A stretch of 64,000 bases of DNA, from positions 1,674,001-1,738,000 of the forward strand of contig NZ_CP114280.1 in NCBI RefSeq assembly GCF_029635795.1. The letters are read 5' to 3'. The notes under the pieces were generated by a model. That model worked only from the letters and a program-made list of their open reading frames with translations. It was not told where the DNA came from and ran no database searches. Positions 44,885 to 64,000 of this stretch are shown one piece after another. Both the position numbers and the translations under genes were made by a program. The stretch's first letter is position 1. Each line of letters begins with the position of its first letter. This DNA is from Dickeya lacustris (lineage in GTDB: Bacteria; Pseudomonadota; Gammaproteobacteria; Enterobacterales; Enterobacteriaceae).

Positions 44885-44907
44885 AAGGACACTCCCTGTC
44901 CGTTTTA
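44885..44907 (+). terminator. Weak terminator after yfjQ
   Basis: GGACA-CTCCC-TGTCC-GTTTT on the plus strand, 25 bases after the yfjQ stop. The stem is only 5 bp. Confidence 0.4.
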
Positions 44908-45070
44908 CCTCCATTGGGTTGAGTGTTTTTTCACCGCATTTCACGGAGCGCCGCGTCGGGCCTGCCTCCAGTGGAAAATAAAAAATAGTTCATTCCATGT
45001 CCATACCCTGTCCGCCCCCCTCTTTAGAATCATTTCATATTCAGTCAGTTAACTATTACGGAGATTTAAG

Positions 45071-45781: not shown

Positions 45782-45806
45782 TTACCTCTGTAAATAAGGA
45801 AAAACA

Positions 45807-46343: not shown

Positions 46344-46384
46344 ATCGTCGCTACCTGATACTTTCTCTGTTAAGGACCAACGTA

Positions 46385-46822: not shown

Positions 46823-46888
46823 TAACACCCGATATCAACCTCTCTCATTTTGCCCGACAGCGGGCTGGATTAATTCAGGAAGAAGACC

Positions 46889-47299: not shown

Positions 47300-47327
47300 C
47301 AATCCCCCCACACATGCAAACTCCCAC

Positions 47328-47366
47328 AGCCCCTGACGCAGATGCATCAGGGGCTTTTGCTTTTAA
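47328..47366 (+). terminator. Terminator after the second secreted protein gene
   Basis: AGCCCCTGA-CGCAGATGCA-TCAGGGGCT-TTTGCTTTT on the plus strand. Confidence 0.85.
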
Positions 47367-47376
47367 GGTACACTGA

Positions 47377-47613
47377 ATGTCTGAATCTCACATGCTGCCA
47401 CCGGGACCTTTCACCCGACAGCAGGCCGACGCTATTACCTGCCGGTATCAAAACATCGCCATTGAAGATGCCCGGCACAGTCACTTCCGCCTGGTGGTTC
47501 GTGACTCTGAAGGCCGGATGGTCTGGCGGACGTGGTGCTTTGAACCTGATGCCGGTGAAGGACTTAATCGTTATATCCGCAAGTCAGGCATACTCAAAGC
47601 ATCCTCCCCCTGA
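47377..47613 (+). CDS. DUF905 family protein
   Basis: A 78-residue cytoplasmic protein of the DUF905 type common on enterobacterial plasmids and islands. The pattern PPGPFTRQQADAITCRYQNI, HFRLVVRDSEGRMVWRTW and FEPDAGEGLNRYI fits my memory of the family. No function is known. It lies between two terminators, so it is probably transcribed alone; its ATG lies only 11 bases after the upstream terminator, so a promoter inside the preceding hairpin region or read-through is needed. Confidence 0.75.
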   Translation: MSESHMLPPGPFTRQQADAITCRYQNIAIEDARHSHFRLVVRDSEGRMVWRTWCFEPDAGEGLNRYIRKSGILKASSP

Positions 47614-47654
47614 CTACACCCATTCATCATCCCTGCATGTCCTTTATTTCCTAT

Positions 47655-47684
47655 ACGCCAGCCATCGTCGCTGGCGTTTTTATT
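47655..47684 (+). terminator. Terminator before the antirestriction gene
   Basis: ACGCCAGC-CATCGTC-GCTGGCGTTTTTATT on the plus strand, about 40 bases after the DUF905 stop. Confidence 0.88.
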
Positions 47685-47698
47685 GACGGAGAATATCC

Positions 47699-48157
47699 AT
47701 GACGACACAAACGCAATGCGAATTGATGTCCGCTAATGAACCTCAATTTGACCTTACTGCATCACCAGTACCTGACGAGCAGCGTCTCGATTTCTGGCCG
47801 CTGCACTTTGGTGCTATCACGCAGTGGATAACGCTGGAACCCCGTATTTTCGCCTGGATGGACCGCTTCTGTGATGAGTACAGCGGTGGTATCTGGTCCT
47901 TTTACACGCTCAGCAATGGCGGCGCGTTTATGGCTCCTGATGCTGACAGTGACGATAAATGGCATCTTTTCAACAGCATGAACGGTAATAGTTCGCAAAT
48001 GAGCGCAGAAGCCGCAGGTATTGCTATCTGCCTGATTGAATACAGCCATCACGCCTGTCGTACCGAATGCGATGCCATGACGGAGCACTATTACCGACTG
48101 CGGGATTACGCCCTGCAGCACCCTGAATCCCACGCCATTTTGCGCATTATTGATTAA
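47699..48157 (+). CDS. klcA: KlcA/ArdB-family antirestriction protein
   Basis: A 152-residue protein of the ArdB/KlcA family (YfjX, YafX in E. coli islands), which counters type I restriction enzymes in vivo and helps mobile elements enter new hosts. Typical: PDEQRLDFWPLHFGAITQWI, EPRIFAWMDRFCDEYSGGIW, FYTLSNGGAFMAPD and the AEAAGIAICL segment. ACGGAGAATATCC precedes the ATG. It heads a run of tightly packed genes (klcA, radC-like, DUF987, cbeA, cbtA), the conserved right part of CP4-type islands. Confidence 0.92.
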   Translation: MTTQTQCELMSANEPQFDLTASPVPDEQRLDFWPLHFGAITQWITLEPRIFAWMDRFCDEYSGGIWSFYTLSNGGAFMAPDADSDDKWHLFNSMNGNSSQMSAEAAGIAICLIEYSHHACRTECDAMTEHYYRLRDYALQHPESHAILRIID

Positions 48158-48165
48158 GGATATTC

Positions 48166-48648
48166 ATGATGGAACAGTCACTTATCCCACAGGCTACGGC
48201 ACTTCCATTGGCCGCACAACGCACGGTAAAACGCGCTTTAACGCTGCTTGACCGACACCTGCGAGAAACAGTTGTGGCATTCACCTCCACTCAGGCTGCC
48301 CGTGACTGGCTGAAGCTGAAAATGGCGGGGCTGGAGCGTGAAGAATTTATGGTGCTGTATCTGAACCAGCAGAACCAGTTGATTGCCCACGAAACCCTGT
48401 TTGCCGGTTCCATTAGCAGCACCGAGGTGCATCCCCGTGAGGTGGTCAAACGCGCCCTGTACTTCAATGCGGCCGCAGTGATACTGGCACATAACCATCC
48501 CTCCGGCGACACCACGCCCAGCCAGGCAGATAAGACCATCACGCAGCGTCTGGTGCAGGCGCTTCAGCTCGTTGATATCCGTGTGCATGACCACCTTATC
48601 GTCGGTGGCACGCAGATATTGTCGTTCGCTGAACACGGTCTGCTTTGA
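48166..48648 (+). CDS. yfjY: RadC-like JAB-domain protein (YfjY/YeeS family)
   Basis: A 160-residue short RadC-like protein, shorter than chromosomal RadC because it lacks the N-terminal helix-hairpin-helix part. The JAB/MPN metalloprotease-like core has the motif FAGSISSTEVHPREVVKRAL followed by VILAHNHPSGDTTPSQAD, whose His-x-His...Asp are the predicted zinc ligands, and HDHLIVGG near the end. Common on islands; the activity is uncertain and a repair role for RadC is disputed. Starts 8 bases after klcA; two adjacent ATGs. Confidence 0.92.
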   Translation: MMEQSLIPQATALPLAAQRTVKRALTLLDRHLRETVVAFTSTQAARDWLKLKMAGLEREEFMVLYLNQQNQLIAHETLFAGSISSTEVHPREVVKRALYFNAAAVILAHNHPSGDTTPSQADKTITQRLVQALQLVDIRVHDHLIVGGTQILSFAEHGLL

Positions 48649-50264: not shown

Positions 50265-51071
50265 TTACATCTGCTCCGATCGCACCGCCAGTTCCCGGCT
50301 GTATTGTCGGCTGGCATCGACCAGCATTGAGGTGTAGGCGTTTTTGGGGGTATCGCGCGCCAGGTCGCGGGTAGCGAGCGTTTCCAGAATGCGGCCGTAT
50401 TGCATTACCGCCACGTTGTGGCACAGATGCGCTATCACTCCCAGGTCATGCGTTACCATCAGGTAAGTCAGCTTGTCCTGCTGCTGCAACTCCGCCAGCA
50501 GATTCAGAATCTCCGCCTGCACGGAGACATCCAGCGCCGAGGTCGGCTCGTCGAGCAGCAGTACGCGAGGTTCAAGAATCAACGCTCTGGCGATCGCCAC
50601 GCGCTGACGCTGCCCGCCGGAAAGCTGGTGAGGATAACGGCGGCGGAACTGCGGCCCCAACCCAACCTTTGCTAATAACGTATCGATGCGATCATCGCGA
50701 TCGGCGATACGGTGGATTAACAGCGGTTCCGCCAGAATCGTCTCGACGGTATGGCGCGGGTGCAGCGAACCATAAGGGTCTTGAAATACCATTTGCACCC
50801 GGCGACAGCGCGCCTGCTCAATACGGTGCGCCAGCGGTTGGTCATCAATCTTAAGCTGGCCTTGCCAGTGGTTAAACAGCCCGGCCAGACATTTCAGTAC
50901 CGTGGTTTTGCCAGAGCCTGACTCGCCGACCAGCCCAAAAATCTCCCCGTCGTTAACGGTGAGATTCACATCGTACAACACCTGATTTTGCGCGCTTCCC
51001 TCACCAAACGTCAGGTTCAGGTTACGCACCTCAATCATCGCTCGCGGCGTGGGTTTTGCCTCAGTCGTCAT
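50265..51071 (-). CDS. Oligopeptide-type ABC transporter ATP-binding protein (DppF/OppF-like)
   Basis: A 268-residue ATPase of the peptide/nickel import family: Walker A GLVGESGSGKTTVLKCLAG, Q-loop MVFQDPYGSLHPRHTV, signature LSGGQRQRVAIARAL, Walker B VLLLDEPTSALDVSVQ and H-loop MVTHDLGVI. The SLHPRHTV stretch after the Q-loop and a 4-domain set of partners upstream are typical for DppF. It is the last of five transporter genes; the gap to the other ATPase is 9 bases. The C-terminus is shorter than OppF because the final oligopeptide domain is reduced. Confidence 0.92.
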   Translation of the reverse strand: MTTEAKPTPRAMIEVRNLNLTFGEGSAQNQVLYDVNLTVNDGEIFGLVGESGSGKTTVLKCLAGLFNHWQGQLKIDDQPLAHRIEQARCRRVQMVFQDPYGSLHPRHTVETILAEPLLIHRIADRDDRIDTLLAKVGLGPQFRRRYPHQLSGGQRQRVAIARALILEPRVLLLDEPTSALDVSVQAEILNLLAELQQQDKLTYLMVTHDLGVIAHLCHNVAVMQYGRILETLATRDLARDTPKNAYTSMLVDASRQYSRELAVRSEQM

Positions 51072-51080
51072 AGGTGCTCC

Positions 51081-51983
51081 TTAAGGGTTGAGCCAGGCGG
51101 GATCACGGTTCATGACCGGTAAACGTGGCCGAGGATTATCGATATCCGGCAGGGCATTGAGCAAACCACGGGTATAAGGGTGTTGCGCCTGCTCCAGATC
51201 GGCGGCGGCTATCGACTCCACTACCCGACCGGCGTACATCACCAGCACCCGATCGCAGAAGCTGCGCACCAGATTGATATCGTGGCTGATAAAAATCAGC
51301 CCCAGCCCGCGCTCACTGACCAAATCATCCAGCATCGCCAGCACTTGCAGGCGCACGGACACATCCAGCGCCGAGGTCGGTTCGTCGGCAATCACCACCT
51401 CCGGTTCGGTAATCAGCATCATGGCAATCATGATGCGCTGCCCCTGCCCGCCGGAAATCTCATGCGGATACAAGCCATACACCCGCTCCGGCTGGCGAAT
51501 GCGCACTACATCCAGCATCGCCAGTACCTTTTCCTTCGCCGCCCGCCATGAGACACGGTGGTGAGCGAGATAGGCTTCGGCTATCTGATCGCCGACGCAC
51601 ACCACCGGGTTCAGCGAATACTTGGGATCCTGCATGATCATGGAGATGCGTTTACCACGAATCTGGCGCATGCGCGCTTCGTCCGCTGCCAGCAGGTCGA
51701 TACCGTTAAAGTTCAGGCGGTCGGCGGTAATGCGGGCGCTACGCGGATGTAACTGTAATAAGGCGCGCCCAACGGTGGATTTGCCGGAGCCGGATTCCCC
51801 CACAATCGCCAGCTTTTCACACCCCAGCGAGAAAGACACACCGCGCACGGCATCCGTCACCGCCCGGCCATTGACGAAACTCACCCGCAGATTATCTACC
51901 TCCAGCAGCGAACCGGCTTGCGCCTTGCGGTGAGTCACATTCACATTATTCAGTTCTGGGATCGAGGATGTCACGTAAGCCAT
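51081..51983 (-). CDS. Oligopeptide-type ABC transporter ATP-binding protein (DppD/OppD-like)
   Basis: A 300-residue ATPase: Walker A IVGESGSGKSTVGRALL, Q-loop MIMQDPKYSLNPVV, signature ISGGQGQRIMIAMML, Walker B VVIADEPTSALDVSVR, H-loop FISHDINLV, and a C-terminal oligopeptide domain with HPYTRGLLNALPDID. The signature has QGQR where most relatives have M/QRQR. The ATG at 51983 overlaps the upstream permease by 38 bases, and its AGGAG touches the ATG; a GTG four codons on (51971-51973) has better spacing and may be the real start. Confidence 0.9.
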   Translation of the reverse strand: MAYVTSSIPELNNVNVTHRKAQAGSLLEVDNLRVSFVNGRAVTDAVRGVSFSLGCEKLAIVGESGSGKSTVGRALLQLHPRSARITADRLNFNGIDLLAADEARMRQIRGKRISMIMQDPKYSLNPVVCVGDQIAEAYLAHHRVSWRAAKEKVLAMLDVVRIRQPERVYGLYPHEISGGQGQRIMIAMMLITEPEVVIADEPTSALDVSVRLQVLAMLDDLVSERGLGLIFISHDINLVRSFCDRVLVMYAGRVVESIAAADLEQAQHPYTRGLLNALPDIDNPRPRLPVMNRDPAWLNP

Positions 51984-52851
51984 CTCCTAGGAAATTGAAC
52001 GCCAGACTGTTGATTAAAATCGCCAGCCCCGGGATCGTCACCAGCCACCAGCACTCCATCATGTAGCGGCGGCCTGCCGAAATCATCGCCCCCCATTCCG
52101 GGTCGGGCGGCTGGGCACCCAGCCCGAGAAAGCCCAGGCCAGCGGCCGTCAGAATGATGCCAGCCATGTTCATGGTGATACGAATAATCACCGACGGCAG
52201 GCACAGCGGCACAATGTGATGCAGCAGAATACGCAGCGAAGACGCGCCCTGTAGTTTTACCGCCGAGACAAAATCAGCCTGACGTAGCGACAAGGTCTCC
52301 GCCCGCGCCAGCCGTGCGATCGGCGGCCAGGCGGTGAGCGTAATGGCAATCACCACATGCTCCAGCCCTGGGCCGAGCGCCGCCACAAACGCCAGTGCCA
52401 GCACCAGACTGGGAAATGAGATGAAGATATCGGTGATGCGCATCAAAATGGTATCGACCACGCCGCCGTAATACCCCGCGACCACGCCCAGCAACAACCC
52501 GATGGGCCCGACGGTGACGGACACCAGCGCCACGATATACAGCGTGATACGAGAACCGTATACCAGACGGCTGAACACATCGCGGCCAAATTCATCGGTG
52601 CCAAACCAATGGCTGGCGCTCGGTGCCTGCAACGCATTGGTCAGATCCTGCGCCAGCGGGTCGTGGGTGGCGATAAGCGGTGAAAACACCGCCATCAGCA
52701 GCAACAGCAATACAATGGCCAAACCTATCGCCGTCAACGGGTTGCGCATCATCAGCAGTAAAAAGCTGAATAGACGCGCCCCGCGCAGCTTCTGGCTGCC
52801 GGTACGTTTCTGCGGCTGCGCGCGCAATACCGGCTCAGAGGAAATCGTCAT
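51946..52851 (-). CDS. Oligopeptide-type ABC transporter permease (DppC/OppC-like)
   Basis: A 301-residue inner-membrane permease. An N-terminal helix at about 35-60 (PLTAIGLAIVLLLLLMAVFS) is followed by the BPD_transp domain with five helices; HWFGTDEFGRDVFSRLVYGSR and the ATPase-contact EAA loop around ARAETLSLRQADFVSAVKLQGA are diagnostic. The ATG overlaps the stop of the DppB-like gene by four bases (ATGA). Confidence 0.92.
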   Translation of the reverse strand: MTISSEPVLRAQPQKRTGSQKLRGARLFSFLLLMMRNPLTAIGLAIVLLLLLMAVFSPLIATHDPLAQDLTNALQAPSASHWFGTDEFGRDVFSRLVYGSRITLYIVALVSVTVGPIGLLLGVVAGYYGGVVDTILMRITDIFISFPSLVLALAFVAALGPGLEHVVIAITLTAWPPIARLARAETLSLRQADFVSAVKLQGASSLRILLHHIVPLCLPSVIIRITMNMAGIILTAAGLGFLGLGAQPPDPEWGAMISAGRRYMMECWWLVTIPGLAILINSLAFNFLGDGLRDILDPRTE

Positions 52852-53906
52852 ACTCTCGTCCTCGGATCAAAGACCTGATACAACATGTCCGACAGCAGAT
52901 TCAGGCTGACGAAAATCAACCCGACCAGCAGGACACAACCCATCACCGCGTTCATGTCGCCCAGCAGCAGGCTGCCGGTGAGATAAGAGCCAAAACCCGG
53001 CCACGAGAACACCGTTTCTATCAATACCGCGCCCTCCAGCAGCGACCCGTAAGCCAGCGCCACCACCGTCAGCAACTGCACCAGAATGTTACGGAACGCA
53101 TGTGCCCACACCACGCGAAATTCCGACAATCCCTTCACCCGCGCGGTGATGATGTATTCCTGCGACAACTGCGCCAGCATGAAACTGCGCGTCATACGGC
53201 TGATGTACGCCAGCGAGTGAAACCCCAGCAGCGTGGCGGGCAGCACCAGATGATTGAGCGCGCTGCGGAACACCTCCCAGTTGCCATCCAGCAGCGAATC
53301 GACCAGCAGCAGGCCGGTACGGTTTTCCACCAACCCGTCGTAAGCCATATCGACCCGCCCGGCGCCGCCGACCCAGTTCAACCAGGCATAGAACACCAGC
53401 AGCCCCATCATCCCCACCCAAAAGATCGGGGTGGAATAACCGGCCAGGCTGATGAAACGCACCACGTAATCCGCCCATTTACCGCGCCTTGCCGCCGCCA
53501 GCACGCCCAGCGGCACGCCCAGCCCGGCACCGACGATAATCGCCATCGTCGCCAGCTCAACGGTGGCGGGGAAAACGCGGATAATGTCGTCAATGACCGG
53601 GCGGCCAGTCAGCAAGGCATTGCCGAGATCGCCGTGCAATAGCGCGTTGAAGTAAATCCAGAACTGAACATACAGCGGCTTATCCAGCCCCAGTTGCTGA
53701 TAAACCTGTTGGTAGGTGCTTTGATCGGCATCCTGCCCGACGATCGCCAGCACCGGATCGATAGGCATGACGCGGCCGATAATAAACGTCAGGATCAATA
53801 AACCAAACAGCGTGACCGCGACCTGGAATAGACGTTTCGCCAACCGGCGCAACATCCCTCCCGGCCTCAGCCACTCACCCGGTTTGATTCGATCAGAGAA
53901 AACCAT
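52848..53906 (-). CDS. Oligopeptide-type ABC transporter permease (DppB/OppB-like)
   Basis: A 352-residue permease: an N-terminal helix (LFQVAVTLFGLLILTFIIGR), a periplasmic loop with YQQLGLDKPLYVQFW and the BPD_transp domain; the EAA loop is in YIITARVKGLSEFRVVWAHA and the family ending DMLYQVFDPRTRV is present. The ATG at 53906 is chosen because GAGGGAG lies upstream and helix 1 follows; the longer frame would run into the binding-protein gene and add 47 unlikely residues. The gap to the binding-protein gene is 85 bases. Confidence 0.9.
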   Translation of the reverse strand: MVFSDRIKPGEWLRPGGMLRRLAKRLFQVAVTLFGLLILTFIIGRVMPIDPVLAIVGQDADQSTYQQVYQQLGLDKPLYVQFWIYFNALLHGDLGNALLTGRPVIDDIIRVFPATVELATMAIIVGAGLGVPLGVLAAARRGKWADYVVRFISLAGYSTPIFWVGMMGLLVFYAWLNWVGGAGRVDMAYDGLVENRTGLLLVDSLLDGNWEVFRSALNHLVLPATLLGFHSLAYISRMTRSFMLAQLSQEYIITARVKGLSEFRVVWAHAFRNILVQLLTVVALAYGSLLEGAVLIETVFSWPGFGSYLTGSLLLGDMNAVMGCVLLVGLIFVSLNLLSDMLYQVFDPRTRV

Positions 53907-53991
53907 GTTCTTTCTCCCTCGTTCCCGGTCAGCAACAGACATCAGGCTGCCGCTGACCGGTGATTTCACGTTGGCGCGTTGCTGTCGCCTA

Positions 53992-55602
53992 TTAGCGTTG
54001 CTTGTACACGTCGCGCAGATGGGTGGTGGAAGACGGATGCGGCACATACTTCACCACGTCCTTGCGCAACACCACCGAGTCGATCATCTGAGAAACCGGA
54101 ATAATGGCCGGATACAACGCCTCATAACGGTTCTGAACGTCGATATACATCTGCTTCTGCTTTTGCGGGTCCTTTTCCAGCAACGCCTGATCGATAACCT
54201 CGTTCAGCTGCTTGTCATAAAACGAGGTGCGCCAGCCCTGAAAATTGGTCAACTTGGCTTCATCGCTGTTGTCGGGGTTGTACACCACGGAGCGCAAGCT
54301 GGAATGCGGATGAGGGTCAACCCCGCCGCCGCCGCGCCCGACCAGCATGTCGAACTTGCGATCGCGCATCGCACCATAGACCTGATTACCGGTGCCGGAG
54401 AGGATCTGAACTTTGATGCCAGCTTGCGCCAGTGTCGATTGCACTGAAGTGGCAAGATTGAGGAAAGGTTGATCGGACAACACGCGCAGCGTCGTCTCAA
54501 AGCCGTTGGGGTAGCCCGCTTGCGCCAGCAAGGTCTTCGCCCGCGCCACGTCCAGCTTGTACCCCGGATCGGGCAGCGTGGCGTCCATCCCTTTTTGGAT
54601 CGGGCGCTGATGGTAGAAACCATAGCCGGTCATCACGGTGTTGTTGATGCCATCGTAGTCGATCAGATAGCGTACCGCTTCGCGCACTTTCGGGTTGGCG
54701 AAATACGTGTTCTTCAGGCTCATCGACACGTAATACAACGTGCCTTTGGTCACTTCTTTCACCACGACCTCTTTATCCTGCTTCAGCGCGTTGATATCCG
54801 GCACCGACATGCCGGTCGCCACATCGATGTCGCCTTTCTCTATCATCAACCGCAGCGCCTGCGATTCGGTCATATGCCGGAAAATGACGCGCTTCATTTT
54901 GGCGTCGCCCTGCCAGTAGCCGTTGGCGCGGCTGATACGCAGCACATCTTTTGCCTGCCATACATCCAGCTTGAAGGGGCCGGAACCGGCTTCATTGGTG
55001 GTCAGCCAGCCATTGCCCCAGTCGCCGTTTTTCTCGTGTTGCAGCACGGTTTTGCGATCCAATACCGAGCCGCTGCCGAGCGTCGCCAGTGAATAAATGA
55101 TCAGTTTGGCATCGTTGGGTTTGGGCAGTTCTATCTCGACCGTATGGGCATCTTTGGCGCGGATCATCTTCGCGACGTTATCCGGCGTAAAGCCGTAGGA
55201 TTTCCAGGTGGTCGCCTGCGCCATATTCAGGTGCAGCAACCGGCTCATCGACCAGACAAAATCCTCAGCCGTCACCGGGTTGCCGGAATGGAATTTCGCG
55301 TTATCCACCAGATTGAAAGTGATGACGTTGCCGTCGTCGCTCACGCTCCAGCTTTTCGCCAGCGCGGGCAACACGTGGCTCAGGTTGTCGGGGTCTAGCT
55401 CGACCAGCGAGTCGTAGAGATTCACCACGACGCCGACCACTTCATTGCCGGTCATCGCGGCGGGGTCGAGCGACAGCATGTTGTTCATATTCATGCCGAC
55501 AATCAATTGATCGTCAGGCGTTTTAGCAGACAGAACCGCCGGTGTGGCGGCCATACACAGCGTGCTCAGTAACAGGGTACGAAGTATTGCTCGCGCTTTC
55601 AT
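53992..55602 (-). CDS. Periplasmic peptide-type substrate-binding protein (SBP_bac_5)
   Basis: A 536-residue family-5 extracellular binding protein. The signal peptide (MKARAILRTLLLSTLCMAAT) ends near LSA. Signature parts: VGMNMNNMLSLDPAAMTGNE, SWSVSDDGNVITFNL with AKFHSGNPVTAEDFVWS, and KVREAVRYLIDYDG. It binds the solute (peptides, or for some relatives opines, glutathione, nickel or sugars) and delivers it to the DppBC-like permease. First of five transporter genes; the ligand is unknown, but the enolase-superfamily gene 80 bases upstream suggests a sugar acid or an amino-acid-like compound. Confidence 0.92.
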   Translation of the reverse strand: MKARAILRTLLLSTLCMAATPAVLSAKTPDDQLIVGMNMNNMLSLDPAAMTGNEVVGVVVNLYDSLVELDPDNLSHVLPALAKSWSVSDDGNVITFNLVDNAKFHSGNPVTAEDFVWSMSRLLHLNMAQATTWKSYGFTPDNVAKMIRAKDAHTVEIELPKPNDAKLIIYSLATLGSGSVLDRKTVLQHEKNGDWGNGWLTTNEAGSGPFKLDVWQAKDVLRISRANGYWQGDAKMKRVIFRHMTESQALRLMIEKGDIDVATGMSVPDINALKQDKEVVVKEVTKGTLYYVSMSLKNTYFANPKVREAVRYLIDYDGINNTVMTGYGFYHQRPIQKGMDATLPDPGYKLDVARAKTLLAQAGYPNGFETTLRVLSDQPFLNLATSVQSTLAQAGIKVQILSGTGNQVYGAMRDRKFDMLVGRGGGGVDPHPHSSLRSVVYNPDNSDEAKLTNFQGWRTSFYDKQLNEVIDQALLEKDPQKQKQMYIDVQNRYEALYPAIIPVSQMIDSVVLRKDVVKYVPHPSSTTHLRDVYKQR

Positions 55603-55682
55603 TGTGCTTCTCCAGGTGTGGCAGTATGGAAGACGACAACATCTTGTTTTTTTTAATAAAAATGACCGTACGGATGACTGCG

Positions 55683-56837
55683 CTAGGCCTGGCTCAATGT
55701 GTGCGCCTCAATCCAGTCAAAATTGATGTCCTCGCCCAGACCGGGCCGCTGCGACAGGTGTACAAAACCGTCTTCGTCCATCGGGTCTACCAGCGCATTC
55801 AGATAAGCGGCGGGCTCATCGTAGTTGAGGAACGGATGCAGCAGGCCGCGCTCGTACCAGCGGCAGTTTTTAATCGCTCCCACCACCGCCAGATTGGGCG
55901 CGCCGTTGCCGTGGATTTCGCAATCCATACCGAAGGCTTCCGCCAGATGCGCCACCTTCAGGCACGGTGAAATGCCGCCCACGCCCTGCACCCCGGCACG
56001 CAGAATGTCGCAGGCCCCTTCCTTCACCCAGTCGGCACGGCTGAAGTATTTCCCGCCCAGACTTTCCGGCCCGATGACATCGATATCCAGATTCTTGTTC
56101 AGCCAGCTGTAAGAGGCCATGCTCTGCTCTTCCATCGGCTCTTCGAACCAGCTGAAGTTCAGTTTTTGCAGTTCACGGCCGATGTACAGTGCCTCGCTGC
56201 GGCTGTACCAGTGGTAGCCGTCCAGCATCAGGCTGATATCCGGCCCCACCGCCTCGCGCACCGCCGCACAGGCTTTCACGTCCATTTGCGGGCTCGGCGC
56301 GAACGACACCGGCGGCATCCAGGTGTGCAGCTTGATGGCCTTGTAACCGCGCTGCACCAGTTTTTCGGCGAACTGGCCGTACTCCTCCGGCGTTGACAGG
56401 CCGCCCTTCAGCTCGTCGCCGCACATGGTGCTGCCATAGGCCAGCACTTTGTCGCGGTAGCCGCCCAGCAGCTTATACACCGGCACGTTCAGCGCCCGCC
56501 CGGCCAGATCCCACAATGCCTGCTCGATGATGGCCAGCGCCCGGTCGGTCAACTGGCTGGCGCTGCCGCGCTGCCAGTGCACCAGATCCTGCCACAGGCG
56601 TTCACGATCAAACGGGTTCTGCCCAATCAGCACCTTGCGGAAAAAACTGTTCACCACATACGGGCGAACCACTTCCGGCGGCGCAAACGCATAGCCTTTG
56701 TGCCCGTCATCGGTACTGACCGTCAGCAGCGCCATGCTGGCCTGATGCTCATCGCCCGGATGGGAGTGCCCGGCGCTGTCGGAAACGCGGCGAGTGGGAT
56801 AAGTGAAGACGGTGACGTCGATTGATTCAATTTTCAC
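55683..56837 (-). CDS. Enolase-superfamily enzyme (mandelate racemase / sugar-acid dehydratase type)
   Basis: A 384-residue MR_MLE-type enzyme. The Mg(2+) ligands are visible: Asp in SLMLDGYHWY, Glu in FSWFEEPMEE and Glu in VIGPESLGG. The catalytic strand reads YKAIKLHTW, so the usual second lysine of KxK is His; a general-base His is in CEIHGNGAPN. The superfamily abstracts a proton next to a carboxylate to racemise or dehydrate it. The start is probably the GTG at 56835-56837 (AGGTAAT upstream; next residues KIESIDV); an ATG ten codons upstream is possible. Same strand as the transporter and 80 bases from it, so likely one operon. The exact reaction is not recognised. Confidence 0.82.
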   Translation of the reverse strand: MKIESIDVTVFTYPTRRVSDSAGHSHPGDEHQASMALLTVSTDDGHKGYAFAPPEVVRPYVVNSFFRKVLIGQNPFDRERLWQDLVHWQRGSASQLTDRALAIIEQALWDLAGRALNVPVYKLLGGYRDKVLAYGSTMCGDELKGGLSTPEEYGQFAEKLVQRGYKAIKLHTWMPPVSFAPSPQMDVKACAAVREAVGPDISLMLDGYHWYSRSEALYIGRELQKLNFSWFEEPMEEQSMASYSWLNKNLDIDVIGPESLGGKYFSRADWVKEGACDILRAGVQGVGGISPCLKVAHLAEAFGMDCEIHGNGAPNLAVVGAIKNCRWYERGLLHPFLNYDEPAAYLNALVDPMDEDGFVHLSQRPGLGEDINFDWIEAHTLSQA

Positions 56838-56914
56838 GTTGATTACCTGCCTGAATAGTTGACCCATTTACAAAACGTGCAGCAATAAACTGTGTGTATC
56901 GAAAAATGCATCTG

Positions 56915-57044
56915 ATATACCCGTCATACTTCAAGTTGCAGGTGCGTTGGCTGCCCTCGCTCACCCCAGTCACTTACCTGAGTAAGCTCCTGGGGATTCA
57001 CTCGGTTGCCGCCTTCCTGCAACTCGAATTATTTTGGGTATATA
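56915..57044. repeat. ERIC element (full length, about 130 bp)
   Basis: An enterobacterial repetitive intergenic consensus palindrome with terminal inverted ATATACCC...GGGTATAT and the conserved centre CGCTCACCCCAGTCACTTAC then CTGAGTAAGCTCCTGGGGAT. Intact. Confidence 0.96.
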
Positions 57045-57472
57045 TGGCGAAAATTATGTATCAAGCGAAAAACCGATATATTTCTTTGCCGTCAGACGAC
57101 AAAGACAAAATACCCAAGAAAAGAAACCATGTATTAATTAAAAGGAAATTGCGTTTTATTTAGATTATTATGGCTGTATATCATTTAGTCATTAGGCAAT
57201 TTCTCCCATATGATGAAATTATGATATGGAAAATTAGGCAAACGCCCATGACCTTGTGAGCATTCTCACTAAGAAAAACAGAGCCCTTATACATGACAAG
57301 GTCAAATAACCGTCAAACCCGGCCAGTGGCAAGCGGCAGCCTACCTCAGGATGCAAGTTGCAACGCAATGCGCATTGGCTCGGCAGGGCAAGGCGGAGTG
57401 CAATACTGTTGGCGGGATTTCACTGACTCAAGCGAGGGCTGATGGTGAGAGGGTTTAATACTGACTGCCCGT
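57045..57472. other. Gene-free stretch between ERIC copies
   Basis: About 430 bases. The left part is A/T-rich and contains the continuing frame of no recognised gene; the right part (57300-57460) is G/C-rich. Nothing recognisable as gene or RNA. Confidence 0.35.
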
Positions 57473-57545
57473 GATATATCCGTCATACGTCAAGTTGCAG
57501 GTGCGTTGGCTTTCCTGCAACTCGACTTATTTAGGCTCTATATTT
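57473..57545. repeat. ERIC element with internal deletion
   Basis: ATATATCCGTCATACGTCAA, then GTTGCAGGTGCGTTGGC joins directly to TTTCCTGCAACTCGACTTAT, so the central ERIC palindrome of about 55 bp is missing. The right end overlaps the stop codon of the GNAT gene (57538-57540). Confidence 0.85.
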
Positions 57546-57975
57546 TTATGCTATAGCGGACAAAATCATCGCGTGTGGCCAACTTGTCATATAATAATCG
57601 GGCTGGATTATCCTCTCTGGTATGCCAATATACTTTTGACCACCCCTTTTCTCGAGCTTCATCACAAATAGCGTCTATCAGCGTTTTTCCTATTCCCGAT
57701 CTGCGGGCCTTAATGTCAACAAACAGATCTTCGAGATAACAAATTGGCTGAGTAGACCATGTGCCCTCATGTAAAACGCATATTGCAAACCCAACAATGT
57801 GTTTATTTTTTTCGGCTACCCGGCATATTAATCCAGAGTCTGGCGAAAGCGTTCGCTGCCATGTCGATAAGGTAATCGCATCTGCCAGCTCGGAACCGTA
57901 AAAATGCAGATACCCTTTCCAGAGCGTTAACCACGCGTCATAATCGCTTGCTTCGGCTTTACGAATATTAATCAT
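57538..57975 (-). CDS. GNAT-family N-acetyltransferase
   Basis: A 145-residue acetyltransferase: MINIRKAEASDYDAWLTLWK at the start, the acetyl-CoA region YLEDLFVDIKARRSGIGKTL (R-x-x-G-I-G form of the loop), and VYWHTREDNPARLLYDKLA near the end. Similar small GNATs act on antibiotics, amines or protein N-termini; the substrate is unknown. Its last codons and stop lie in the edge of a deleted ERIC element, so the C-terminus may have been altered by that insertion. Separated from the ATP-grasp cluster by 145 bases on the same strand; it could be a resistance or tailoring gene for it. Confidence 0.85.
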   Translation of the reverse strand: MINIRKAEASDYDAWLTLWKGYLHFYGSELADAITLSTWQRTLSPDSGLICRVAEKNKHIVGFAICVLHEGTWSTQPICYLEDLFVDIKARRSGIGKTLIDAICDEAREKGWSKVYWHTREDNPARLLYDKLATRDDFVRYSIKI

Positions 57976-58120
57976 CGAATATCCCTTTGACTAACCAAAC
58001 AGACCAGGATGGTAACAAGATTAGCTTGCCTGTATTCATCCTGAACATCATTTTCAGTGGCAGAAAATAAATATCCGCCACCCTATCCCGTTATCTCACG
58101 CCAATAAACGTGTTTCACCA

Positions 58121-59377
58121 TTAACTCATCGCGTATTCTGCATCCGTGATACTCGTAATGGATATATGACTAAACATATCAAGCACGAAATTGTGAGCAT
58201 CCTGAAATGATGTTGCGCACAACATGCCTGCCAATGGCGCGACGTTCTCCAGATAAGTCAGTGTCGTGCTCATTTTTACTTGAGCTGGCAGTGGGTGCCA
58301 TTCATAAACCCATGGGGACGCGCTGAACGCGCTGGCACCGTTAATACAGGCATAGCCTTCGGGTAAATGGTGGCCGGGAAAGACAAACCAGCCGAAGTAA
58401 TATTCTTTTTCCGGTGTGTTTTTAATGACATCCGGCACCCAACCTAATTGTGCGCTCAGATGTACCTGGTGCAGATTGACGCCCGTCCGTAACTCAAATG
58501 CACGCACTACGCTAGCCCCACCCGCCCGATGCCCTATTTCCAGAAAAACCCAGCCCGAGGCATGTTGAAAGACCTCCAGATGAAAACAACCCTGTTTGAT
58601 ACCCACGGCTGCAATCACCTGACGGGAGAACGTTAACAGCGTCGCAGGTAGCTCGCACTGTAAAGAACCGAGGGGACTTCCCTGGGCAAAACTCAGGCAA
58701 TTACCGATATAACGGCTGCTCACACAGAGCTCAATTTCACCAGAACGGACATAGCCATCAATATGCCAGATATCCCCTTCAATAAATTCTTCCACTTGAT
58801 ACCGGGCGGTATTCTGTCGCCTATCAATATCATCGATATAAGTGCTGTGGTTATTCAACGCCAGGCGTAATGCATGATGAGAGGGATAAATTTGCACATT
58901 CTCACTGGATGCCCCATCCAGCGGCTTAAGTACGACCTGGGTCGATTTGAATTCATCAAGAATGGTCGGATTATCTAAAACGGCATCCAGCGCATGGCAT
59001 GTAGGTGTCGCCAGCCCCGCTGCCGCCACTGCCGCTTTCATCAACAGTTTGTTCCTAAAGAGCTCAACCTCGGCAGCGCTTGGCCCTGGAATGCTGAAAT
59101 AATCTCGAATATGTGCAGCAATATCAATTTGATATTCAGATAAAGCAATAAAGTTTCGTGGTGAGGGTGTTTTTGTTCTCATCATGTCAATCAGAATATC
59201 CACACCGTCTTGCTCTTGCCATATCCATTTCTCACAGTTCAGTTCATCAGGAATATCAGAAAGGGCACGCTTTGTTCCAATATAGATAATATGGTTATCG
59301 GTATGATTAAGTATTTCATCATAGCGAACACAATAAAAGGGAACTCTATGCCATATATAAATAACATCATCCTGCAT
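58121..59377 (-). CDS. ATP-grasp ligase A
   Basis: A 418-residue ATP-grasp protein. The N-terminal pre-ATP-grasp part (residues 1-100) is followed by the central domain with VVLKPLDGASSENVQIYPS (ATP lysine and glycine-poor loop) and VEEFIEGDIWHIDGYVRSGE, and the Mg/phosphate part GCFHLEVFQHASGWVFLEIGHRAGG. The family joins a carboxylate to an amine through an acylphosphate. It resembles the amino-acid ligase branch (BacD-like) rather than biotin or purine enzymes. AGAAGGAAGC precedes the ATG. Together with the second ATP-grasp gene 130 bases upstream it could make a dipeptide- or tripeptide-like compound. Confidence 0.82.
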   Translation of the reverse strand: MQDDVIYIWHRVPFYCVRYDEILNHTDNHIIYIGTKRALSDIPDELNCEKWIWQEQDGVDILIDMMRTKTPSPRNFIALSEYQIDIAAHIRDYFSIPGPSAAEVELFRNKLLMKAAVAAAGLATPTCHALDAVLDNPTILDEFKSTQVVLKPLDGASSENVQIYPSHHALRLALNNHSTYIDDIDRRQNTARYQVEEFIEGDIWHIDGYVRSGEIELCVSSRYIGNCLSFAQGSPLGSLQCELPATLLTFSRQVIAAVGIKQGCFHLEVFQHASGWVFLEIGHRAGGASVVRAFELRTGVNLHQVHLSAQLGWVPDVIKNTPEKEYYFGWFVFPGHHLPEGYACINGASAFSASPWVYEWHPLPAQVKMSTTLTYLENVAPLAGMLCATSFQDAHNFVLDMFSHISITSITDAEYAMS

Positions 59378-59399
59378 TTTATGCTTCCTTCTTCATTGC

Positions 59400-59470
59400 T
59401 ATACCCGTCATACCTTACGTTGCAAGTGTGTTGGCTGCATTCCTGCAACCCGAATTATTTGGGGTATATA
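59400..59470. repeat. ERIC element with internal deletion, second copy
   Basis: ATACCCGTCATACCTTACGT, TTGCAAGTGTGTTGGCTGCA then TTCCTGCAACCCGAATTATT and TGGGGTATATA. Same deletion as the 57473 copy (centre missing). It lies between the two ATP-grasp genes and would form a hairpin in their transcript. Confidence 0.85.
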
Positions 59471-59506
59471 TCACGTCTGGTGCGCTAAAAGGTTGTCACA
59501 AATATT

Positions 59507-60754
59507 TTAATAAACGTGGTAAAACGCATGTCCGTCCAAATAACGTAGCGTTCCCCAATCACGTAAAACGACCTCTTCAGCACGATGTTTTAACAGCACC
59601 AGCATCGGGTAGGTTGTATCGTCGATGGTTTTGCTAATTTTCTCACCGGGTTTCACGTATTCGCGGATCTCCAACAAACTTTCCAGTTGGTTTATCTGAT
59701 CTTTATAAGGATAAGACTCAAGCACCCCATCAAAAGGACTTATCATTGCGACCGAGGCAAAATAGTGATGAAGAGGATAAGGAACATCACACATTTCATG
59801 GAATTTTTGCGGTTCGGTATAAGCCAATCGAGTCCAGTTTATTTGTGATTGACCCGTGGCAAGCTCGGCATAATAAGGCATATCGCCTCCCGCGATTCGC
59901 GCGCCGATTTCAACCAGACAAGGGCCATCATGACACATTTTTATTTCCATATGCCCTGGCCCATACTGAATATTCATCGCGTCAAGCACCTGTAGTGCAT
60001 AGGAAACTAAAATATCCTGAATCTGCCCCTCGCGTGGCATAATCTGAATGGAATCCCCCATGTCCAAAAAGGCATTCGCGCTGATACGGGTCGTTTTCCA
60101 AATGTCGGTTACACGGTGTTTCCCTTCACAAGATACGGTATTGACCACATATTCCGTACCCGAAAGATACTCTTGTGCCACCACCTCCTGATTGATTTCC
60201 GAAAAGATATTCTTTTTCCCGACAATCGCTTGCAGAGCTGCGTATGACTCATCGGGCGTATCACAGAAGTGTACCCCTTCACCGGCTGCGCTACGGGCTG
60301 GTTTTACCACAATCCGCCCCCCGGTCTTGGTATGCCATTCCCGTAGTGCCTCACCATTTGCCGGAAGATATTGCCGCGTGGCGCGAAGACCCACGCTGCG
60401 CAGACGCTCTATCATGGTGTATTTATGACGCCGTGCCACACTCAATTGAGTTCCGTTTGACGCAAGCCCCAAACGCTCGCTTAATATGTCAGCCAATTCG
60501 ACGCCGATTTCACCACCAGCAATAATGGCGACAGGGTTAAGATTAGCAACGCGCTGGAGCGTAAGTGATAAATCGCCCTGGTGAATAATATTTTCACAAT
60601 AATCATCAAGACTGAATGAACCTTTATAAATATCAGGGATATCAGGTGTGCTCTGCACGCGTGCGCAGCGATAGCCATGCTTAATAAATTCAGGTGCTAA
60701 ACGGCGTGTTGGCGAATACGCATCAACGATAATGACGATACCTTTATTTTCCAT
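59507..60754 (-). CDS. ATP-grasp ligase B
   Basis: A 415-residue ATP-grasp protein of the L-amino-acid ligase type (BacD/DdaF-like). The N-terminal Rossmann-like part (GIVIIVDAYSPTRRLAPEF) is followed by RIVVKPARSAAGEGVHFCDT (nucleotide-binding Lys and loop), VVAQEYLSGTEYVVNTVSCE and the metal-binding PGHMEIKM with LVEIGARIAGGDMP. It forms amide bonds between carboxylic acids and amines using ATP. The ATG at 60754 has GTGAG 9 bases upstream; an ATG three codons upstream has none. Same strand and order as the binding-fold protein upstream. Confidence 0.85.
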   Translation of the reverse strand: MENKGIVIIVDAYSPTRRLAPEFIKHGYRCARVQSTPDIPDIYKGSFSLDDYCENIIHQGDLSLTLQRVANLNPVAIIAGGEIGVELADILSERLGLASNGTQLSVARRHKYTMIERLRSVGLRATRQYLPANGEALREWHTKTGGRIVVKPARSAAGEGVHFCDTPDESYAALQAIVGKKNIFSEINQEVVAQEYLSGTEYVVNTVSCEGKHRVTDIWKTTRISANAFLDMGDSIQIMPREGQIQDILVSYALQVLDAMNIQYGPGHMEIKMCHDGPCLVEIGARIAGGDMPYYAELATGQSQINWTRLAYTEPQKFHEMCDVPYPLHHYFASVAMISPFDGVLESYPYKDQINQLESLLEIREYVKPGEKISKTIDDTTYPMLVLLKHRAEEVVLRDWGTLRYLDGHAFYHVY

Positions 60755-60813
60755 ATTAATCATCTCACTGTTTATTACGTTTCTCGTAAATAAGAATGGA
60801 TTTATTACGGTAT

Positions 60814-61608
60814 TTATTTAATACAATATCCCTTCCAGCCCGCTGGCAGATAACGGCCTCGTTCATCAAAATAATCCGCCCAGGTATTATGTTTCAGGCA
60901 CATGACCTTCCAGGCCATATTCACACTGCGCTTAAGTAAATCGCTATATCCTGGCATTGAAGAACATACCCAAACGCCTGGACGGGCACATTGTGTAAAT
61001 TCTGTAATATCGCAATCATCACAGCAGATAGCTGCGCCACGCCATGATGCCCCTTCATGACGCATACGTTCCAGAATGGAAAAATGCGCCCCCAGATAAA
61101 ATGTCACGCCGCCTTCACCATCATCATTACTGGCATCAATCTCCGGTATTGCATATTCATACTGCTGTTGCAGTAAATTCAGTAACCGGCGGCTGTAATT
61201 CGAGCCATCCGCCCAGTAATAGCGCGTTGAATGAGGAAAGTGGCTATCGGCAATCGCTTTCAGCTCGCTGACCTGCTCCACGTCAGTAGCACAAAGCTGA
61301 AATACCGACTCACCATCCCCCAAATGCGCGGCGGTTGATGCGGGTAACAATAAGGGAATTCCCGCTGCGCGGTAGGCGGGTATCGCCGCCTGTGCGCAAT
61401 CACTGTTGAAATGGCCAATAACTACATCACTGTGCGCTATAATCTGCTCAAGATGACGTTTAACGGTATGCGGATCGGCTTTATCGTCAAAGAAATGAAT
61501 AGACAACCCCTCTTTGGGTAAAACATCCGCCATTGCCTTACGTATCAGTTCGCCATAGCAAGCGCGTGGGCCCGTTAACGGGCCTGCAATACAGACTCTT
61601 AATTGCAT
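60814..61608 (-). CDS. Type-I periplasmic-binding-fold protein without signal peptide
   Basis: A 264-residue protein that begins directly with MQLRVCIAGPLTGPRACYGE, which matches the first strand and helix of leucine/amide-binding proteins (LivK, AmiC, UrtA type); DVVIGHFNSDCAQAAIPAYR and GIPLLLPASTAAHLG continue the fold. There is no signal peptide and no transporter gene beside it, so it should be cytoplasmic. Length is shorter than typical (about 350-400), with a compact C-terminus. Cytoplasmic members such as AmiC act as ligand sensors. Here it is encoded inside a cluster of ATP-grasp and FAD enzymes, so it may sense or bind the product or an intermediate. I do not recognise a named relative. 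Confidence 0.65.
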   Translation of the reverse strand: MQLRVCIAGPLTGPRACYGELIRKAMADVLPKEGLSIHFFDDKADPHTVKRHLEQIIAHSDVVIGHFNSDCAQAAIPAYRAAGIPLLLPASTAAHLGDGESVFQLCATDVEQVSELKAIADSHFPHSTRYYWADGSNYSRRLLNLLQQQYEYAIPEIDASNDDGEGGVTFYLGAHFSILERMRHEGASWRGAAICCDDCDITEFTQCARPGVWVCSSMPGYSDLLKRSVNMAWKVMCLKHNTWADYFDERGRYLPAGWKGYCIK

Positions 61609-61650
61609 TATTGATCCTGCCGGTAATATTTTATGACAGCGATTAACCGT

Positions 61651-63168
61651 TCAAATTTTGGCTGGCTCAACCGATTGACGGTGCCGGAATATATTTAAAG
61701 GATCTCTTTTTGCTTTAATTTCCTGTAGTCGTGGATAATTATCCTTGAAATAAAGTTCAGCCCACGTCACACCGGAAGTGTTTAATGCCAGATCATTCAG
61801 ATCGGCGTCAGGATAATTAATAAAGCATCCATCGGTGATGTGATTACTTACCGGAACACCGCCGGTATCGGCATAGGTGCTGTGGTAAATTTGGCGAATC
61901 CAGTCAAGATTCTGCCGATCATCTTTTTCATCGGCCCAAAGACTCTGATACAGGACTTTCATCACCGAGTCACGTTGTGAGACGGCCGTTGCGTCCGGCG
62001 CAACCTCATTCACCGCACCGCCATAGGGTAAAACCATCACCATCGCATTTTTATTCGTAAAACTGTCCGTCGTCAGATAGCGATATAACGTTTCGGTCTG
62101 CTGCTCGGGAAAATTTTGCCTCATATACGCGGACTTATACGCGCCGCGCAATGTGGGATCCGATAGCGACGGGCTATTGCTGCCCAGTAGCCGTAACGAT
62201 TTTAGCCATGGCAATCTGCGTGGCGCTTCCAGGTGTGAAAGTGCGGAAAAACCCGTAACACCTTCAATACCTTCGAAAATATCACGATGATATTGCGCTA
62301 AAATAGCCTCAGCATTCGCGACTGACGCATCCATCTGTGTCAATAGTGCGACAACCCCCTGCGCTTTTTGATACATGACAAGATAACCAGCCAGCGAGGA
62401 TTCGGGGCTGTCAGCGCGCTGGTGTTTCATATACCACGCGCCGTAATTACGCATCAGGCGTGAGAAATCCCTTTTCCCGAGGCTTTCCCACGGAATCACT
62501 TTTACACTCAAATAGACTTCCGCAGGCGGGCCAGGCAGCATTTTTGCCGGATCGTTCCCCTGAGCGGTTGGCGAGCGAAACCAGAATTTCGTCACAATCC
62601 CCAGTTGCCCGCCGCCGCCGCCAGCATGTGCCCACCATAAATCGTGATTTGGGCAATCCCGATCGCGCCGGGCAATCAGGGCATGCGCCTTACCCGAGCT
62701 ATCGACGGTAACAACTTCGATGGCGTAAAGATGATCGACGGTTAAACCATGACGGCGGGAGAGTAAGCCAAAGCCGCCGCCGCAAACATGACCGCCCATT
62801 CCTGCGTGACTGGCCGGGCCTCCAGGCAGGGTCACATTCCAGCGGCGGTAAAGCACTTCATAGGTTCTGGATAGCGTGGCACCGGCTCCAACGGCAATCG
62901 CCCCCATATCAGGATCAAAAGCGATCTCATCCAGATCAGAGACATCGATAAGAATATCGACATCGGCATGACAGGCGAAATCCTGATAACCGTAGCCCCC
63001 CGCTCGCACACTGATACGCAGCCCCTGCTCCACCGCCTTGTCGATGCACTGCACGGTTTCCTGCGTATTGCCCGGCAAGACGATTTTCGCCGGGCAAGCG
63101 CGCCAGCGCTGGTTCATACCGGTGATATAACTCAGATATCGGCTGTCATTGGGTTCGATAATGGTCAC
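61651..63168 (-). CDS. BBE-type FAD-linked oxidoreductase
   Basis: A 505-residue flavoprotein of the FAD_binding_4/BBE (PCMH) family, which oxidises C-O or C-N bonds with O2. Residues about 25-200 form the FAD domain: VRAGGYGYQDFAC, AVGAGATLSRTYEVLYRRWN, GMGGHVCGGGFGLLSRRHGL and GGGGGQLGIVTKFWF. The C-terminus has the BBE element WAELYFKDNYPRLQEIKAKR then DPLNIFRHRQS. The histidine normally linked to the flavin in the GGH motif is Tyr (GGY), so covalent binding of that type should be absent. Such enzymes are typical in actinobacterial and fungal product pathways. AACGTGACC start; 42 bases from the next gene. Confidence 0.85.
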   Translation of the reverse strand: MTIIEPNDSRYLSYITGMNQRWRACPAKIVLPGNTQETVQCIDKAVEQGLRISVRAGGYGYQDFACHADVDILIDVSDLDEIAFDPDMGAIAVGAGATLSRTYEVLYRRWNVTLPGGPASHAGMGGHVCGGGFGLLSRRHGLTVDHLYAIEVVTVDSSGKAHALIARRDRDCPNHDLWWAHAGGGGGQLGIVTKFWFRSPTAQGNDPAKMLPGPPAEVYLSVKVIPWESLGKRDFSRLMRNYGAWYMKHQRADSPESSLAGYLVMYQKAQGVVALLTQMDASVANAEAILAQYHRDIFEGIEGVTGFSALSHLEAPRRLPWLKSLRLLGSNSPSLSDPTLRGAYKSAYMRQNFPEQQTETLYRYLTTDSFTNKNAMVMVLPYGGAVNEVAPDATAVSQRDSVMKVLYQSLWADEKDDRQNLDWIRQIYHSTYADTGGVPVSNHITDGCFINYPDADLNDLALNTSGVTWAELYFKDNYPRLQEIKAKRDPLNIFRHRQSVEPAKI

Positions 63169-63207
63169 GTTATTACTCCCGATTCAGTCCTGATTGCGGC
63201 CAGCCCA

Positions 63208-64000
63208 TTATTCCGAGGCGACGCTAGCCGGGGCAGAGATAAGCAGCGCATTGATGCCAAACGCGATAGCGGTCATCACCAATGCCAGACCGCCGACCAA
63301 GAAAAAGGCGACATTGAAGCCAAGTGTGTCAACCATCACGCCTGACAACGGAAAGCCAATGGCGTTGCCAATCGTGAGCGCAGAGCCATAAGTGCCCATT
63401 GCCAGTCCACGCTGATGTGGTGCGCTATAGCGGCTAATATCATTGGCTGTCGCCGAGAAAACCGGGGAGCACATCAGCGCGGCTGGAATAATCAGCACGC
63501 AAACAGCAAACGCATTTTGAGAAAAGCCGATCATGCCGGTGGCAAGTGCTAACAGCGCGCAAATTAAAATCGTCTCAGGCGGTTTATCAAAACCGCCATA
63601 CAGTATTCCGCCAACCAATGAAGCGACGCCGCAGGCGATATAAAACCCGGTAGCCCAGGTGATATGCCCGAAATGTTTTAATGCCGCCAGTCCGACAACC
63701 TCATAACTGGCAATCACAAATGTCGCCATCACGGTTAATAGCAAAGACGTGCTTAATCGGCTTTTTAACAAAGAACGCCAGTCGATGCGCTGATCCGGTG
63801 CCTGTTTTTTTTCCTGAGCAGACATACGGGGATTGGCGAAAGAATAGTAAATAATCAGCGCCAGAATAATCGCGCCGCACGCGATCACCGCAGCCTGAGG
63901 CGACAGGCTGGCGCTAATCACAACGGCCAACGGAGGGCCGCTCATATAAGCTAACTCTGTGGTCATGGCATCAAGGGCAAAAGCGCGATGCCGATTTTCA
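63208..64000 (-). CDS. MFS transporter, 5' end outside the window
   Basis: The frame is open past 64000; about 264 residues are visible. The upstream-most part (NRHRAFALDAMTTELAYMSG, then PPLAVVISASLSP) and at least seven further hydrophobic segments fit the second two-thirds of a drug-efflux-like MFS protein; the cytoplasmic loop RMSAQEKKQAPDQRIDW lies between the halves, and SRYSAPHQRGLAMGTYGSAL is a typical second-half motif. Its place at the head of the minus-strand cluster suggests export of the compound the cluster makes, or self-protection. The gap to the FAD enzyme gene is 39 bases. Confidence 0.8.
   Translation of the reverse strand, partial: ENRHRAFALDAMTTELAYMSGPPLAVVISASLSPQAAVIACGAIILALIIYYSFANPRMSAQEKKQAPDQRIDWRSLLKSRLSTSLLLTVMATFVIASYEVVGLAALKHFGHITWATGFYIACGVASLVGGILYGGFDKPPETILICALLALATGMIGFSQNAFAVCVLIIPAALMCSPVFSATANDISRYSAPHQRGLAMGTYGSALTIGNAIGFPLSGVMVDTLGFNVAFFLVGGLALVMTAIAFGINALLISAPASVASE

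Follow-up and report, generated by a model that had tools for sequence, protein, structure and literature searches.

The question raised by this locus is what its genes make. The stretch under study, here called the window, is 64,000 bases of the Dickeya lacustris genome (C1:1674001-1738000 of a single contig of 4,367,773 bases), and at its end six minus-strand genes encode two ATP-grasp ligases, a BBE-type flavin oxidase, a binding-fold protein, an MFS exporter and a GNAT acetyltransferase. The initial annotation read them as a locus for an oxidised dipeptide of the bacilysin or dapdiamide type. Past base 64000 the strand that carries these genes continues with ten others, the last of them reaching C1:1749078, and the six genes are the tail of a 16-gene operon. 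The upstream genes include an N-hydroxylase, a hydrazine synthetase and an oxidase, a set that lies outside the window and was therefore missed, and because of it a hydrazine pathway takes the place of the proposed dipeptide. Judged from its gene families, the operon very probably joins two nitrogens to build an exported small molecule; we think it likely that the whole is a horizontally acquired 16-gene route to a hydrazine-type compound that works without carrier proteins.

The argument for a nitrogen-nitrogen bond comes from three minus-strand genes: a lysine/ornithine N-hydroxylase (NMO; C1:1747750-1749078), a hydrazine synthetase (HS; C1:1741681-1743660), which is a fusion of a cupin with a methionyl-tRNA synthetase (MetRS), and a D-amino-acid-oxidase-like flavoenzyme (DAO; two ORFs (open reading frames), C1:1746698-1747651 and 1747584-1747796). 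Together these correspond to the enzymes that supply hydrazinoacetic acid (HAA) in the s56-p1, azaserine and triacsin pathways (PMC11705231, PMC10445470). The first two steps are also described for DOBA, with DobG and DobE (PMC13061610), HAA for N-nitroglycine is made by nngKLM (PMC13274452), and characterised members of the HS family form N-N bonds from glycine, alanine, serine, glutamate or tyrosine (PMC11705231). The solved protein closest to NMO is MbtG, an L-lysine N6-monooxygenase (1.3e-104). HS has both domains (Pfam Cupin_2, 1e-10; tRNA-synt_1g, 7.4e-80) and keeps the HLGH, KFSTS and HRHHE motifs and two CxxC motifs, while the intact DAO of G392, the second carrier genome of the genus, matches glycine/sarcosine oxidases. 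The s56-p1 (Spb38/39/40), azaserine (AzsL/M/N) and triacsin (Tri26-28) pathways likewise hold the N-hydroxylase, the FAD oxidase and the cupin-MetRS fusion in one operon, and have a GNAT and an exporter in common with ours.

The order of transcription in the operon is NMO, DAO, a DHDPS-fold aldolase (C1:1745787-1746695), a rhaM-like gene (C1:1745404-1745775), an HMGL-fold aldolase (C1:1744318-1745322), a HAD phosphatase (C1:1743657-1744328), HS, an SDR (C1:1740908-1741633), the asparagine-synthase homologue AsnB (C1:1739013-1740851), which retains Cys2 and SGGLDSS, and an ARD-like cupin (C1:1738490-1738999), all on the minus strand outside the window. The MFS exporter follows, a protein of 395 residues whose gene is cut by the window end (3' part at 63208-64000, full gene to C1:1738395), and then the BBE oxidase (61651-63168), a signal-less protein of the LivJ fold (PBPfold; 60814-61608), ATP-grasp ligase B (59507-60763), the divergent ATP-grasp ligase A (58121-59377) and, as the last gene, GNAT (57538-57975), again all on the minus strand. 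The initial annotation had placed its six ORFs correctly, and its spacings of 39 bases (MFS to BBE), 42 (BBE to PBPfold) and 129 (ligase B to A) are as it gave them; the 59 bases between PBPfold and ligase B hold if the second ATG is the start and are otherwise 50, and 145 bases separate ligase A from GNAT. Its family guesses agree with Pfam (Acetyltransf_1 at 2.2e-16 for GNAT, ATP-grasp_4 for both ligases, with 3.3e-8 for A, ANF_receptor for PBPfold, FAD_binding_4 and BBE for the oxidase, and MFS_1), and its picture of a small-molecule locus that combines an exporter with ATP-grasp enzymes of the amino-acid-ligase type is supported. The Pfam and NCBIfam scan covered 15 of the 16 products, NMO having been compared with PDB structures only. 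Within those 15 the statement that there is no nonribosomal peptide synthetase, polyketide synthase or carrier domain holds by Pfam, and the AMP-ligase, carrier protein, C45 peptidase and acyl-CoA dehydrogenase of the azaserine/triacsin subtype are likewise not among them; the operon has ATP-grasp ligases and PBPfold instead.

What the analysis establishes is gene content and order, protein families, conservation, and the fold and conserved pocket positions of PBPfold. From the families we propose a route whose first three steps are modelled on characterised homologues. NMO would N-hydroxylate lysine, or a closely similar compound, on its side chain; the MetRS-like domain of HS would adenylate an amino acid, probably glycine, the hydroxylamine would capture the adenylate, and the cupin domain would rearrange the ester to form the N-N bond. 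DAO would then cut one C-N bond oxidatively and release HAA or a sister hydrazino acid. For the later steps, and for the identity of the product, what follows is what we infer. The two aldolases, the rhaM-like protein, HAD and SDR may build an oxo- or hydroxy-acid partner, which AsnB might amidate or to which it might transfer the hydrazine. The coupling of the hydrazine building block to this partner is probably the work of one or both ATP-grasp ligases and would give a hydrazide- or hydrazone-type pseudo-dipeptide. The BBE oxidase is closest to TamL (a hexose oxidase; 2y08, 3.2e-144), AknOx and CrmK, and these matches, read with the reactions that we take those enzymes to catalyse, suggest that it oxidises a hydroxyl group. 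MFS probably exports the product, GNAT may acylate the hydrazine or protect the producer, and the cytosolic PBPfold may have as its ligand a small compound of the pathway that resembles an amino acid, such as HAA or one of its precursors, which it would hold or deliver. An AsnB-like enzyme transfers hydrazine in albofungin synthesis (PMC11705231), and by its description that enzyme, Afn14, is an AsnB-family member in an HS-type cluster as ours is; the partner there is an aromatic polyketide, which is not so in this operon.

Conservation argues that the genes belong together. G392 has the same 16 genes in the same order, all open and 95.7-100% identical, with GNAT in the same place at 96.6%. 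Nine operon genes recur together, at 30-55% identity, in a more distant relative (G160) and on a plasmid of Streptomyces sp. NBC_01483, and on account of these two observations we regard the grouping as more than chance. The G160 identities are 48% for DHDPS, 43% for rhaM, 37% for HMGL, 30% for HAD, 35% for SDR, 39% for NMO, 31% for DAO, 41% for HS and 33% for PBPfold; the cluster also holds an ORF with a weak ATP-grasp match but no Pfam match, a pyridoxal-phosphate decarboxylase and a GNAT. On the Streptomyces plasmid the values are 48% (DHDPS), 42% (rhaM), 36% (HMGL), 33% (HAD), 55% and 52% (two SDR matches), 39% (NMO), 34% (DAO), 32% (PBPfold) and 56% (AsnB), and HS and ATP-grasp are split over frames there, the longest HS piece being 35% identical and the ATP-grasp pieces 54% over 74 residues and 24% over 215. 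The DHDPS-fold proteins of the three loci share HHAKS and FKPE stretches. In Erwinia pyrifoliae, protein matches were found for HS (76%), PBPfold (73%) and ligase A (72%), the longest contig for each being 4,122,351 bases. Two strains of Vibrio penaeicida carry a short HS operon (8659-16324) of NMO, HS, PBPfold, DAO, an EamA transporter and an ATP-grasp gene. For the co-conservation that the initial annotation asked about the outcome is mixed: PBPfold and a type-B ATP-grasp gene recur in HS loci, and for BBE, ligase A and the ARD-like cupin BLAST gave no match, as set out below.

Within the genus, two of nine genomes carry PBPfold at 99-100% identity, the other seven giving only a 35-36% match over about 95 residues inside a larger ORF. 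At E <= 1e-65 a phylum sample of 398 genomes returned HS from one, the window's own. A family sample at E <= 1e-30 matched HS in 342 of 392 genomes, mostly through ordinary MetRS, and at E < 1e-90 in six (the window's own, G000, with G273, G160, G352, G070 and G014); G361 was identified as an HS locus only on reading the locus. G112 (L055) was dropped, as its protein clusters with ordinary MetRS sequences and the search for an NMO gave nothing. Near-identical DNA was absent from the E. coli genomes and plasmids searched. A 7,262-base piece of Serratia sp. Ag1 contig58, from rhaM to AsnB, is 66-93% identical; we rejected it as an independent intact copy on account of its small contig and broken frames, and it is apparently a remnant.

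Several observations weigh against a working hydrazine pathway of this design. After MbtG the next matches of NMO are KtzI and ornithine hydroxylases, and ornithine or another amine is a possible substrate; DAO could cut on the opposite side of the conjugate, as Apy10 does (PMC11705231). By BLAST, BBE, ligase A and the ARD-like cupin have no match in the G160 or Streptomyces clusters, nor is MFS present in either, and ligase B was not found in the Serratia sp. Ag1 genome, an empty result that says little. DAO, intact in G392, is divided between two frames in the genome of the window, and the ARD-like ORF has 169 residues as against 201 in G392, where its Pfam score passes the cut-off that the shorter ORF misses. 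Because of these two differences, which may reflect decay or sequencing error, the pathway may be dead in this strain.

That the operon is a decaying, inactive island remnant here, whatever the ancestral pathway, is the alternative that survives best, and we regard it as possible, if on balance unlikely. The interrupted DAO and shortened ARD-like ORF speak for it, as does the variable tmRNA-linked region that houses the operon, bordered on one side by the tmRNA gene (window 38626-38989) and on the other by a conserved block (C1:1750280-1752656). The distance between these markers runs from 5.8 to 68.8 kb in the seven of nine genus genomes that have both on one contig. Measured in 2-kb bins, G+C content ranges from 0.41 to 0.54 across the operon and from 0.47 to 0.62 in the flanking bins, and G392 shows, by eye, transposase-like pieces and an integrase-like ORF between GNAT and tmRNA. 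The site has the look of an integration hot spot, and the operon that of an acquired one. Against decay, the other 14 genes are open and 96-100% identical to those of G392, and a sequencing error is possible.

The signal-less binding-fold protein is an odd member of the operon. The type I periplasmic-binding fold of PBPfold is confirmed, and the protein starts, by eye, at the first strand (model positions 3-9) with no leader before it, as do most relatives in our alignment A1; the initial annotation had also called it signal-less. It has 264 residues, as compared with about 350 in Atu2422 and LivJ binding proteins, and no transporter partner in the operon, no ABC permease or ATPase being found among the 15 products scanned. 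The positions aligned with the ligand site of amino-acid-binding relatives, which we take to be those that hold the ligand in Atu2422, are invariant, and C106, H175, D197 and D198 are invariant in addition.

We opened 20 HS loci, 18 of them from searches with HS and two (G392 and Vibrio halioticoli) from searches with PBPfold, a bias to be kept in mind in the counts. PBPfold lies near HS in ten: G000, G392, Ramlibacter, Tumebacillus, both V. penaeicida strains, G160, G361 (matched over just 85 residues), V. halioticoli and Streptomyces NBC_01483, so that the pairing spans Enterobacterales, Vibrio, Ramlibacter, Tumebacillus and Streptomyces. BLAST with one query against the ORFs of the remaining ten gave no PBPfold, though distant copies can escape such a search: Chengkuizengella, G352, G070, G014, Rhizobium rhizogenes, Mesorhizobium, S. 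meliloti, two further Streptomyces and Serratia Ag1, the last a truncated contig. In a tree of 18 NMO sequences the nine from PBPfold loci, with Chengkuizengella, stand across a 100/100 branch from the eight of loci lacking PBPfold, which are mostly azaserine-like in make-up; the nine PBPfold rows need two changes, a number as low in 1 of 500 shuffles. In the HS tree the PBPfold loci do not form one clade (eight rows, four changes, 13 of 500 shuffles as low, several long branches). Among 5.8 billion proteins the search found 22 homologues of PBPfold, and the longest contig of eight of them, nine with the window's own, has exactly the size of one listed for an HS protein; on contigs of at least 8 kb this is true of 9 of 12. 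The comparison used 117 sizes from 120 listed of 478 HS proteins, and an equal size is indirect evidence of one contig. Plasmid searches gave 74 records for HS, of which H1, H3, H5, H8, H9 and H17 (the same as H21) were opened, and 89 for PBPfold, of which both that were opened (H21 and H23) lie near HS-like genes; plasmid matches of PBPfold listed with a gene name are ABC-transport binding proteins.

The protein might instead have come from transport, being left over or mislocated and taking no part in synthesis, which we find doubtful. Its nearest solved relatives are periplasmic transport proteins; such genes were grouped with transporters and peptide-binding proteins by Iyer et al. in 2010 (PMC2922099); and half of the 20 HS loci opened lack it, including Chengkuizengella with its same-clade NMO. 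The missing leader, the missing permease, the recurrence near HS in distant lineages and the invariant ligand positions argue against this, and the Dpp/Opp-type ABC system directly downstream on the same strand (window 50265-56867, with an enolase-superfamily MR_MLE gene) has a binding protein of its own, and the part of G392 read past GNAT has other ORFs in its place. In the azaserine, triacsin and DOBA pathways HAA is carried on proteins of the carrier type (PMC11705231). With considerable reserve we propose that PBPfold serves in place of the acyl carrier protein of azaserine and triacsin, is dedicated to carrying a reactive hydrazino acid without a covalent link, and hands HAA, which should have the size of beta-alanine, to the ATP-grasp ligases. 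The solved protein closest to PBPfold is a GABA receptor whose structure contains alanine. Speaking against a strict division between the two kinds of carrier are, judged by eye, the Ramlibacter and Tumebacillus loci, which have PBPfold and long nonribosomal-peptide-synthetase-like ORFs, and the V. halioticoli plasmid, which has PBPfold and an AMP-ligase-like ORF. If the proposal is true, a periplasmic-type binding protein acts as a metabolite chaperone inside a biosynthetic pathway.

The dipeptide of the initial annotation would require that no N-N bond is made and that NMO, HS and DAO belong to another pathway, which we consider very unlikely. Two ATP-grasp ligases and an MFS gene are what such a locus would show, and ligase B scores 244 bits against the DdaF model; the cut-off of that equivalog is 840 bits, and ligase A reaches 43. 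Ligase B is better placed in PRK07206 (352 bits, cut-off 302; ligase A 62.8) and matches the L-amino acid ligase 30vh over its length (4.6e-61), while ligase A, 21% identical to B, is only distantly related to such enzymes, its nearest solved protein being the L-amino acid ligase 4wd3 (5.8e-13). The whole set also stands in one close-packed operon in two genomes, and an ATP-grasp gene accompanies NMO, HS and DAO in V. penaeicida, Streptomyces and, weakly, G160. Still further from likely is the Met-Lys dipeptide derivative predicted in 2010 for paralogous-MetRS operons on the grounds of the ancestry of MetRS, the presence of the ARD gene and the neighbourhoods of N6-hydroxylase genes (PMC2922099), since characterised HS-family members make N-N bonds (PMC11705231).

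That prediction does show that the initial annotation went too far in matching the combination to no known system. From gene neighbourhoods, and naming Erwinia pyrifoliae, Iyer et al. predicted operons that combine a cupin-MetRS protein with a lysine monooxygenase, subsets of which also carry ATP-grasp, AsnB, ARD and periplasmic-binding-protein genes (PMC2922099); in the portions available they grouped the binding protein with transporters and not as a signal-less partner of HS. Beyond that prediction we found no chemical description of the operon in the partly covered literature, and in the accessible text of the E. pyrifoliae genome paper (PMC2827408) operon-related terms matched the reference list only. 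New here are the hydrazine reading, the second building-block module common from enterobacteria to Streptomyces, and the view of PBPfold as a neighbour of HS that lacks a leader, conserves its ligand-site positions and is accompanied by a separate clade of N-hydroxylases. Among the HS pathways reviewed in PMC11705231, those for which a product is named are from actinomycetes. Together with its relatives the present locus represents a branch that extends over enterobacteria, vibrios, Ramlibacter, Tumebacillus and Streptomyces and has its own N-hydroxylase clade, a cytosolic binding protein and, in several members, ATP-grasp ligases. PBPfold near HS offers a handle for mining unexplored N-N natural products. 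A beta-RFA-P-synthase-like C-glycoside enzyme is presumably a feature of the C-nucleosides pyrazomycin and formycin, and no such Pfam family occurs among the 15 products scanned. Negamycin was dropped as a comparison, since the titles of papers (including PMC12154649) point to a heme enzyme for its hydrazine.

Some minor features of the setting remain. Upstream of NMO one promoter-like site was found as against 2.5 in shuffles; the gap between the ligase genes is unremarkable as an RNA fold (z -1.13); and Rfam at gathering thresholds returned only the tmRNA from window 36000-64000. That gap holds a short repeat (59400-59471) which occurs at seven other places in the genome and is missing from G392, where the gap is about 60 bases shorter; with the intergenic-type repeats at 57000-57047 and 57471-57547 it has 33 genome matches in all, window included. 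Genes for a GTPase, DUF932, GYF_2, antirestriction and RadC proteins follow the tmRNA (window 43068-48648) and resemble what we take to be a CP4-57-type island, which the operon adjoins. Among the other HS loci, G361 (L054, 9386-17351) has cupin and MetRS as separate genes, along with two genes for NMO, a 455-residue protein, DAO and a distant PBPfold; the unannotated V. halioticoli plasmid record (L050) holds MetRS-like, GNAT, AMP-ligase-like, cupin, DAO, PBPfold and NMO genes; and Rhizobium rhizogenes pC5.7b (L044) has a 384-residue protein with no Pfam match directly after HS, near annotated PEP-mutase family, dapA, TauD, Rieske, GST and MFS genes. For finding the product, the short operon of V. 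penaeicida may be the simplest system.

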